A stretch of DNA of 64,000 bases, from assembly GCF_012030425.1 (NCBI RefSeq), contig NZ_JAAUVN010000004.1, positions 62,001-126,000 of the forward strand, written 5' to 3'. The notes beneath the pieces were generated by a model. That model was not told the origin of the DNA and searched no databases. It was given only the letters and a program-made list of their open reading frames with translations. Position numbers and translations under genes: made by a program. Positions 10,568 to 12,799 of this stretch are shown one piece after another (the stretch's first letter is position 1; each line of letters begins with the position of its first letter). Source of the DNA: Sphingobacterium sp. B16(2022) (GTDB taxonomy: Bacteria > Bacteroidota > Bacteroidia > Sphingobacteriales > Sphingobacteriaceae).

Positions 10568-11494
10568 CTATTTCAATACAACCGTTGATCTTCCCATGAT
10601 AGCATTGTCGGCATACAAAAGAACAGTATAAGCTCCCTTAGTGAACTTCTTATCATCTTTCCAATATAATGAATATTCTTCACCATGATTGGTAAACTCT
10701 ATTGTGCTTTTAAAAGTATATTGAAGTTTTTCACTATGTGCATAAAAAGTATTGTCATCCTGATTGATAATAAGATTACCTTGCGGATCAATAATACGTA
10801 CAAAAATATCCTTTTTCCCCACTTTTGCAAGGGTATTATCTGCAATATTAAAATTTATACTTAATTTATCAACTCTCTTTGCCCTTTCCTCTACTTCAAC
10901 TTTATCGTTTCTTTTTTCCTGTAGTCCATAAACCGCAATATTAGAAACTTTGATAGCTGCAGCGACATTTACCTTTGAAGCTAAATTTGTATTTGAGCTT
11001 TCCAAATTACTAATCTTAGTGGAGGAAGCTGAGACTTCTTTTTGTAATAAGCTATTCTTCTCCGCTAGAATTTTATTTTCCTGAATAAGTCTATTAACAT
11101 CCAAACTAAAATATGCAACTTCACTTTTCAACGAAGTAATTGTCGACTGAGCATGATCAATATCACTCTGTGACAATTGTTTCTGTGCTAATTTAGTTCG
11201 TAAATCTATGATTTTTTTTCTTGCATTTTGTTCTTTCTCGATTAAAGGAGGAGATAATTGAATATTTTCAATTTTCATTTTATCGAGCTCTGCTTCAATA
11301 CGATCGATCTCCACTTCAAGGTTCTCTTTTTCAACCGTTAGTGCATAGACCTTCTCTCCTGAAGACTTAAATTTAACATAAAAATAAACATTTGTGACAA
11401 CAAGCGCCGCGATTGCTATGATAAAAAAATAAACTTTTGATGTATTTTTCTTAATCTCTTCCTGCTTATTACCTTTTACTAATTCAGTTTCCAT
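10568..11494 (-). CDS. Membrane-anchored coiled-coil protein with C-terminal beta domain, unknown function
   Basis: 308 residues. A short Lys/Glu-rich cytoplasmic N-terminus is followed by one membrane span (about residues 22-42). A long heptad-rich coiled coil comes next (about 50-175, with repeated Leu/Ile and Glu/Lys). The C-terminal domain of about 110 residues is beta-rich (segments KKDIFVRIIDPQGNLI, YTFKSTIEFT, EEYSLYWKDD, GAYTVLLYAD) and looks like an immunoglobulin-type sandwich. No catalytic motif is seen. The topology suggests an envelope scaffold or tether. I do not recognise a named family; PilO-like and KfrA-like coiled-coil proteins are loose comparisons only. Confidence 0.7.
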   Translation of the reverse strand: METELVKGNKQEEIKKNTSKVYFFIIAIAALVVTNVYFYVKFKSSGEKVYALTVEKENLEVEIDRIEAELDKMKIENIQLSPPLIEKEQNARKKIIDLRTKLAQKQLSQSDIDHAQSTITSLKSEVAYFSLDVNRLIQENKILAEKNSLLQKEVSASSTKISNLESSNTNLASKVNVAAAIKVSNIAVYGLQEKRNDKVEVEERAKRVDKLSINFNIADNTLAKVGKKDIFVRIIDPQGNLIINQDDNTFYAHSEKLQYTFKSTIEFTNHGEEYSLYWKDDKKFTKGAYTVLLYADNAIMGRSTVVLK

Positions 11495-11657: not shown

Positions 11658-12143
11658 TTAGGACTGTTTTTTCACAATCATTAAATTACTCATAATCACT
11701 TCCTTAATAAGGTTATCAAAATGAATCTCTGTTTCGAAATGACCAATATATTGCTGTACTAAATGTTTTTCTATTGTTCGATTCACATCAATTGAAACAG
11801 AGGATCGATCTTCAATTTTAACGACAGTTTGTCCAAATTTTATATATTCTTTGTCTATCTTCAACAGGTCCAATCGTTCCTCATCAATATCAATAATTAC
11901 ACCCTTCTCTAATTCTCCTCTTCCACAGAATTCTATTTCTACCCCCAATTCGGCAAAGCTCATTCTTATCAAATCACGTATGGTAATATCTTTGGCTATA
12001 TATTCCTCCCCAAAATTAAATTGAGATTTTTCCATCCAATATAAATGAGCAGATAAGTCCTTGATATATATTCTATTTTCTAGACCAAGAGCGATAAGAA
12101 CCACCTCCCTTATAATTTTTTGTACAATATTTTTTTCGATCAA
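11658..12143 (-). CDS. Orphan C-terminal half of GDP-mannose 4,6-dehydratase (no Rossmann domain)
   Basis: 161 residues aligning with about the last 165 residues of Gmd. IVQKIIREVVLIALGLENRI matches the Gmd segment VTRKITRAIA..GLE..LYLG. EEYIAKDITIRDLIRMSFAE plus LGVEIEFCGRGELEKGVII matches Gmd DFVIATG..SVRQFVEMA..LGI.L.F.G.GVEEKGIVV. GQTVVKI and the end HFDNLIKEVIMSNLMIVKK match the Gmd C-terminal helix. The NAD-binding GxxGxxG domain and the catalytic Tyr-Lys half are absent, the RDWGHAKDYV segment is rewritten with a deletion of about 12 residues, and the YFRP motif is lost. The reading frame is open but begins at TTG with no ATG. It cannot be a dehydratase; it may be a binding remnant or a repurposed domain. 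Confidence 0.6.
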   Translation of the reverse strand: MIEKNIVQKIIREVVLIALGLENRIYIKDLSAHLYWMEKSQFNFGEEYIAKDITIRDLIRMSFAELGVEIEFCGRGELEKGVIIDIDEERLDLLKIDKEYIKFGQTVVKIEDRSSVSIDVNRTIEKHLVQQYIGHFETEIHFDNLIKEVIMSNLMIVKKQS

Positions 12144-12195
12144 AGTACTGTTTCTAAAATTAGAAAATTTGTTAAATAAAAAATTTTAAACAAGT

Positions 12196-12219
12196 AAAGC
12201 TATAGTTTCCTATAGCTTT
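12196..12219 (-). terminator. Hairpin after the lipoprotein gene
   Basis: A perfect 10-bp stem AAAGCTATAG / CTATAGCTTT has a GAAA tetraloop on the minus strand. A T-rich stretch follows only after several bases, so it may be a weak terminator. It lies between the lipoprotein stop and the Gmd-like gene. Confidence 0.55.
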
Positions 12220-12241
12220 ATCTATCTTCAAAAAGGATATC

Positions 12242-12799
12242 TTAATTTACTCTTGAAAAAGTGAATACTAAATATGCTTCGCCATTTGTAATGGTTACCG
12301 GCATACGCATAACTAATTTACTAGCGTCTGAGTATGATAAATCTAAACGGTAGCCTGTAGTAACATTTTTAGCTTTATCGCCCGCATAAATCTTTTTAAA
12401 CTGAAACTGTGGTTGTCCGTTATTCTTTCCTGGATTGAATATAGACCATATAATATCTCTGGAAGCACCAGGGGCACATAATTTACCGTCTGCTGAAAAT
12501 GAGATGTTTCCTTTACCATTACCAGGCAATGTCCAAGTACTTCCGATAAAGCATTCAGCAGGTGCTTCTTCAAATACACTTTTAATGGTATAAGATGCGG
12601 GTAAATTCTCGCGATCAATAGTGTTTAAAACCCAAGTTCCTTTTACAGCTCCTTTCCAGTCAGAGGCACTAGGCCCTGTAGACATCGCAGTAGATGAAGA
12701 ACTAGATGCTGTTCCTTTTGGTTGCATGCTACAAGCCGAAAAAAGAAACAAACTCAACATGAGAGTTGTGATAGATAAAAGAACTCGATTCATATTCAT
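12242..12799 (-). CDS. Lipocalin-like lipoprotein, unknown function
   Basis: 185 residues. A type II signal peptide ends FSAC (Cys23), followed by a Ser/Thr-rich linker to about residue 45. The mature domain starts WKGAVKGTWVLNTIDRENLP, resembling the opening strand of lipocalin-like domains in Bacteroidota lipoproteins. It continues through predicted beta strands to KLVMRMPVTI and YLVFTFSRVN. The function is not known; lipid or ligand binding is only a fold-based suggestion. It is transcribed divergently from the small membrane protein at 12850. Confidence 0.72.
   Translation of the reverse strand: MNMNRVLLSITTLMLSLFLFSACSMQPKGTASSSSSTAMSTGPSASDWKGAVKGTWVLNTIDRENLPASYTIKSVFEEAPAECFIGSTWTLPGNGKGNISFSADGKLCAPGASRDIIWSIFNPGKNNGQPQFQFKKIYAGDKAKNVTTGYRLDLSYSDASKLVMRMPVTITNGEAYLVFTFSRVN

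Follow-up and report, generated by a model that had tools for sequence, protein, structure and literature searches.

What remains of an enzyme gene once its catalytic half is gone, and can the remainder be of use to the cell? The question is raised by a frame of 161 codons in a stretch of 64,000 nucleotides of DNA from the soil-type bacterium Sphingobacterium sp. B16(2022) (hereafter, the window). A preliminary description had taken this frame for a free-standing part of GDP-mannose 4,6-dehydratase (Gmd; TIGR01472/PF16363, EC 4.2.1.47), namely its C-terminal half, and had considered it to be either a relic of recent date or a domain put to new use in binding or regulation. The frame is present as described, with its TTG start, and lies on the minus strand, which had been left unstated (Table 1). 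It is open for 175 codons, the TTG being the putative start of the 161-codon version, and just 98 bp separate this codon from the upstream gene, in agreement with the claim that no N-terminal remnant lies upstream. The 104-nt stretch that holds the stem-loop between the two genes folds with z = -4.0, and the stem-loop is probably the terminator of the upstream gene.

Table 1. Features of the orphan frame and its surroundings in the window.
Feature	Position	Strand	Description or basis
Stand-alone Gmd C-terminal-domain protein (orphan)	11658–12143	-	161 aa, TTG start, TAA stop; frame, TIGR01472, fold
Retained segment, residues 54–111 (TIRDLIRMSFAELGVEIEFCGRGELEKGVIIDIDEERLDLLKIDKEYIKFGQTVVKIE)	11811–11984	-	dN/dS contrast, alignment, pLDDT 86–96
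N-terminal helix and short strand, residues 1–30	12054–12143	-	Counterpart of TRKITRAVAKIALGLQDRLYLGNL in intact Gmd
C-terminal helix, residues 142–160	11664–11720	-	Counterpart of last Gmd helix
Cys73 codon	11925–11927	-	Ser to Cys site within segment
Stem-loop between upstream gene and orphan	12195–12220	-	11-bp stem
Membrane-anchored coiled-coil protein	10568–11494	-	308 aa; downstream neighbour
Lipocalin-like lipoprotein	12242–12799	-	185 aa; upstream neighbour in the window's clade

A long-type Gmd gene reduced in place

Sequence profiles, a structure database and a predicted fold all identify the orphan as a C-terminal piece of Gmd. The NCBIfam model TIGR01472 (gmd) matches orphan residues 6–154 with its positions 195–339 of 342 (E = 8.9e-6), at 25.1 bits, far under the curated cut-off of 415 bits and short of full length. 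In the PDB, a sequence search finds Escherichia coli Gmd (1db3) at E = 1.8e-4. An AlphaFold2 model, for which the input was the window protein and 51 relatives in an alignment made up mostly of intact enzymes, reached a pLDDT of 77.2 and a pTM of 0.77, with blocks of 86–96 over residues 51–110; its top Foldseek matches are all Gmd, the best being 1db3 (E = 1.4e-8). Both the profile search and the structure prediction, which had been proposed as checks, are therefore positive, and the likeness to Gmd is far beyond chance because relatives hold the same piece in the same slot.

The orphan shares with Gmd common descent, a gene slot and the C-terminal fold elements, including the conserved stretch TVRDFVRMAFAELGIEIEFSGKGEQEKGVIIDIDEERL..IKFGQTVVK. 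However, it comprises 161 residues compared to about 385, starts past the NAD(P)-binding N-terminal domain (TGxxGxDG) and, as had been noted in essence, lacks the catalytic Tyr/Lys pair (YxxxK) and the RDWGHA and Y(F/Y)RPTEV contacts in an alignment with Gmd. Conservation is also differently distributed, being concentrated in a segment that ranks among the enzyme's less conserved regions. This segment is the conserved core common to all catalytically dead copies and to the short stand-alone proteins (minis) of other genera, and the C-terminal helix occurs in clade A and G160 but in only some of the minis, most of which lack it.

In other Sphingobacterium species, the slot upstream of the coiled-coil gene (308 aa) that also flanks the orphan is occupied by an intact Gmd of ~385 aa, and Parapedobacter displays the same order, Gmd then coiled-coil gene. 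Since intact Gmd holds the same slot in other species, the orphan is the ancestral gene reduced in place, a worn-down long-type Gmd, this type being defined by a C-terminal substrate domain with EF[S/C]GKGxxE[K/R]GV[I/V]IDxDExRxxxLxIxxxxIKFGQTVVK.

Erosion and selection within Sphingobacterium

The short form is found in the same slot in G000 (the window's genome), G082 (same species), G011 and G044, and the frame is open in all three relatives. In G104 (L061, 1845–2972, plus strand), the copy is Gmd-like and full-length (375 aa), with a ruined active site (YxxxK to YALSQ, RDWG to RKWG, YRPTEV to SPLKV), but its segment, TIREFIRLSFAELGIEVEFCGRGEQEKGVIIDIDEERL..AIKFGQTVVK, is intact; judging from these motifs, it would be a natural full-length intermediate, a pseudoenzyme. 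Clade B (G002, G036, G080, G084, and G087, together with G122) has proteins of 289–303 aa in the slot, most of them barely or not recognised by Pfam and NCBIfam, in which the segment is still plain. The G122 copy (L040, 3857–4682, minus strand) is split into frames of 170 and 84 codons, which may reflect a genuine break or, this assembly being fragmented, an artefact of assembly; it is the sole split frame that emerged when relatives were examined for stops and frameshifts. Finally, in clade C (G034, G107, G019, and G105) the slot is empty, its gene having been cleanly lost from these four genomes. In a tree of the neighbouring gene, clade A groups with G104 and clade B lies far off with intact species between them, so the erosions in clades A and B are independent. 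Among the intact in-slot Gmds of the genus, 79 of 80 have Ser at residue 73 and none has Cys, and Cys stands in the segment of 9 of the 11 dead Sphingobacterium copies, from both clades; the minis of Mucilaginibacter retain Ser at this site.

The coiled-coil protein has a C-terminal beta-rich region and belongs to no clear Pfam family. Its gene is single-copy and is the constant neighbour of Gmd, intact or eroded, throughout Sphingobacterium and Parapedobacter. Just downstream of it, G036 carries a frame of the group II intron reverse transcriptase/maturase type (L033, 56–1204, minus strand). In the G083 assembly neither the in-slot gene nor the coiled-coil gene was found; an IS200-like transposase gene (L196, 377–790, plus strand) and a contig end stand at the expected position, so that this genome, which had resembled a case of co-loss, was left out. 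It could be proposed that the orphan is the partner of the membrane-anchored coiled-coil protein, as the two genes adjoin in all Sphingobacterium and Parapedobacter loci with an in-slot Gmd or remnant. However, the coiled-coil gene persists in clade C without any Gmd remnant, and no homologue of it was found in the Gmd loci of Mucilaginibacter, Pedobacter or Olivibacter, which removes this partnership as a general explanation; we consider it improbable.

Selection was assessed from Nei–Gojobori (NG86) counts, a crude estimator at such divergence. For the pair G011–G044, dN/dS is 0.09 in the segment, compared to 0.82 and 0.72 in the stretches preceding and following it, respectively, and the nonsynonymous contrast between segment and flanks is significant (Fisher p = 1.6e-6). 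The remaining dead pairs follow the same pattern, with pN of 0.12–0.31 within the segment and 0.34–0.66 outside; the within-species pair G000–G082 is too close to be informative. In intact enzymes, pN is 0.18 in the segment and 0.10 in the remainder for G047–G048, and 0.044 and 0.018, respectively, for G048–G003. In intact Gmd the segment is thus under ordinary or even lax constraint, yet in the dead copies it is the tightly constrained portion. The comparison of synonymous and nonsynonymous change, also among the proposed checks, hence reveals purifying selection on the segment, and outside it the orphan evolves fast, near neutrality in some comparisons.

These data bear on the choice that the preliminary description had left between a relic and a reused domain. 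The rates outside the segment (dN/dS of 0.7–0.8 in one pair and, from few changes, 1.9 in another) are those expected of a plain relic whose frame is open by luck. The segment itself, at 0.09, is under purifying selection, frames are open across diverged species, and the same piece has been retained in separate lineages, where its recurrence is independent. In a rough neutral simulation taken to 0.5 substitutions per site, <0.1% of runs ended with an open frame. In another genus, g46, all 23 of the 23 stand-alone copies inspected are open. A plain recent relic, with neither purifying selection nor intact frames in relatives, is ruled out on these grounds and we regard it as highly improbable; the other half of the proposal, reuse, stands in the form of a conserved non-catalytic protein.

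The conserved entity could also be DNA or RNA, if the segment harboured a promoter, RNA element or antisense gene. In two relatives, antisense frames of 68–80 codons do overlie the segment. In the window, none of the antisense frames listed over the orphan reaches 60 codons, and no Rfam family was found in the window, so that both an antisense gene and an RNA element were rejected. Because most dead pairs have nearly saturated synonymous sites in the segment (pS 0.55–0.96), it is the protein and not the DNA that is under constraint, which leaves this explanation with hardly any credibility.

Stand-alone copies in other genera and the catalytic Gmd

The same stand-alone domain, which it had been proposed to look for elsewhere in the Sphingobacteriaceae, is present in other genera. 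When 150 genomes of the family were surveyed with the segment, short frames of 92–172 aa emerged, in which a helix before LYLGNL is followed by the segment and both the RDWG middle and the YRPTEV tail are missing. We defined minis by the N-terminal helix and EF[SC]GKG..E[KR]GV[IV]ID...FGQTVV in a frame of <200 codons that lacks this middle and this tail. By alignment the window orphan belongs to this group, and its genome, like theirs, is without a long-type full Gmd.

Among 150 genomes of genus g46, 146 have exactly one segment match (E ≤ 1e-9), which lies in a full-length frame in 123 and in a frame of <200 codons in 23. The segment is never found twice in a genome with a match; it is either inside a full Gmd or alone, so that minis and full-length long-type Gmd are mutually exclusive. 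The 23 minis share a conserved operon slot, with the exception of one located elsewhere. With putative family assignments, the order in this slot is DUF2480-like, DUF3108-like, DUF3109, (rmlA), mini and often dxs, and that in named Mucilaginibacter genomes with an intact long-type Gmd is DUF3109, Gmd, dxs. From this shared order we infer that g46 is Mucilaginibacter, and since sister species carry intact Gmd in the same slot, the minis have also been reduced in place. The mini pairs tested have a dN/dS of 0.10–0.18. Further cases are a stand-alone copy in G160, from another genus, and a protein of 208 aa in G238 that adjoins a polysaccharide export gene. In two near-complete genomes of g46, G401 and G265, there is no segment copy at E ≤ 1e-9, and among the matches listed from a class-wide search, none from beyond the family was a convincing stand-alone copy. 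No literature on such stand-alone Gmd fragments was found.

Ordinary broken Gmd genes, such as those of G194 (L203) and G252 (L201), resemble the orphan in being truncated or split. They differ from it in that the YFRPTEV tail is kept, the damage amounts to one disruption or a plain truncation, and there is no helix-plus-segment architecture; they were not counted as minis, nor was G147 (L202), where the contig ends.

The window genome has a second Gmd (C28, L002), which is intact, full-length and short-type, carries all motifs and lies beside the GDP-fucose synthase gene (fcl). The second Gmds that were read in Sphingobacterium clades A and B are likewise without the long segment. A catalytic Gmd above the curated cut-off is present in 15 of 16 mini-bearing genomes, and the 16 catalytic Gmds that could be read, from 14 of these genomes, are all short-type, without the EKGVIIDxDE insert. 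The exception is G369, which has a mini and in which neither Gmd (E ≤ 1e-40) nor Fcl (E ≤ 1e-30) was detected; this genome is 95% complete, so either may have been missed. The persistence of the mini in G369 without Gmd or Fcl is suggestive, not proof. Conversely, at the threshold used, several other genera yielded short-type matches alone and not a single mini.

Since a catalytic Gmd of the short type, devoid of the long segment, accompanies the mini in nearly all genomes that have one, the orphan might act as a regulatory pseudo-subunit, binding the short-type enzyme to regulate or stabilise it. There is a precedent for a non-catalytic paralogue controlling an enzyme of GDP-mannose: GMPPA is such a paralogue, which regulates GMPPB (PMC11228364). 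The orphan resembles GMPPA in being a retained non-catalytic relative of a GDP-mannose enzyme, an analogy of function only, as GMPPA belongs to a different enzyme family, can still bind its ligand and acts alongside an active partner, whereas the orphan domain persists even in G369, which has no detectable Gmd. This genome, together with the genera that have only short-type matches, makes a direct role as a Gmd subunit less likely and also weakens the idea that the mini complements short-type Gmd in trans. Moreover, the full long segment occurs in one copy per genome, which argues that the short-type enzyme does not depend on it everywhere. Overall, a pseudo-subunit appears unlikely, even slightly more so than the sensor considered below.

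Another candidate role is that of a metabolite sensor, in which the domain would have kept or newly acquired a site for a nucleotide sugar, for example that of Gmd feedback by GDP-fucose, and would signal to another protein. Human GMDS has an allosteric site for a product analogue (PMC8640046), in line with such a sensor, and most minis share an operon with another nucleotide-sugar gene, rmlA (loci L197, L198, L230–L232, L263, L265, and L267). However, the GDP-contact motifs RDWG and YRPTEV are lost, the mini remains in G263, G355, and G422 after rmlA has gone from the slot, which also led us to reject a partnership with RmlA, and the pathway itself is seemingly missing in G369. We therefore consider a sensor unlikely as well.

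A proposed second, non-catalytic function of Gmd

The reading that we favour, and hold to be somewhat probable, is that the orphan is a remnant of a long-type Gmd, reduced in place and kept for a second, non-catalytic job of the segment. The second, short-type Gmd beside fcl would have taken over the dehydratase activity, after which the catalytic part of the old long-type gene may have decayed or been deleted, and the domain that bears the segment would have been retained by purifying selection for this other job, one that would need neither NAD, nor an active site, nor the GDP-fucose pathway. The job may consist in binding: the orphan would be a small cytosolic adaptor or regulatory protein, and its conserved strand-loop-strand face would dock on another protein, probably from the nucleotide-sugar or cell-envelope machinery. 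This job is not needed everywhere, as the slot has been emptied in clade C, G401 and G265 have no copy at the threshold used, and several genera show nothing but short-type matches.

More generally, it is likely that the Gmd of the Sphingobacteriaceae is bifunctional, with a C-terminal segment that would have an undescribed function unrelated to GDP-fucose, and a gene that has repeatedly been pared down to ~95–170 residues. The moonlighting of metabolic enzymes is usually discovered by accident at the bench; here, it would have been mapped by repeated gene erosion. The catalytic half was lost several times and the same 60-odd residues were left, which locates the second function to a small, expressible piece, one that database models of Gmd see at best as a weak fragment (25 bits, the cut-off being 415). 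A textbook nucleotide-sugar enzyme would thereby gain a new function open to testing, with a gene of about 95 codons as the handle and, if the bifunctional reading is true, this function would be important enough to outlast the replacement of the enzyme.
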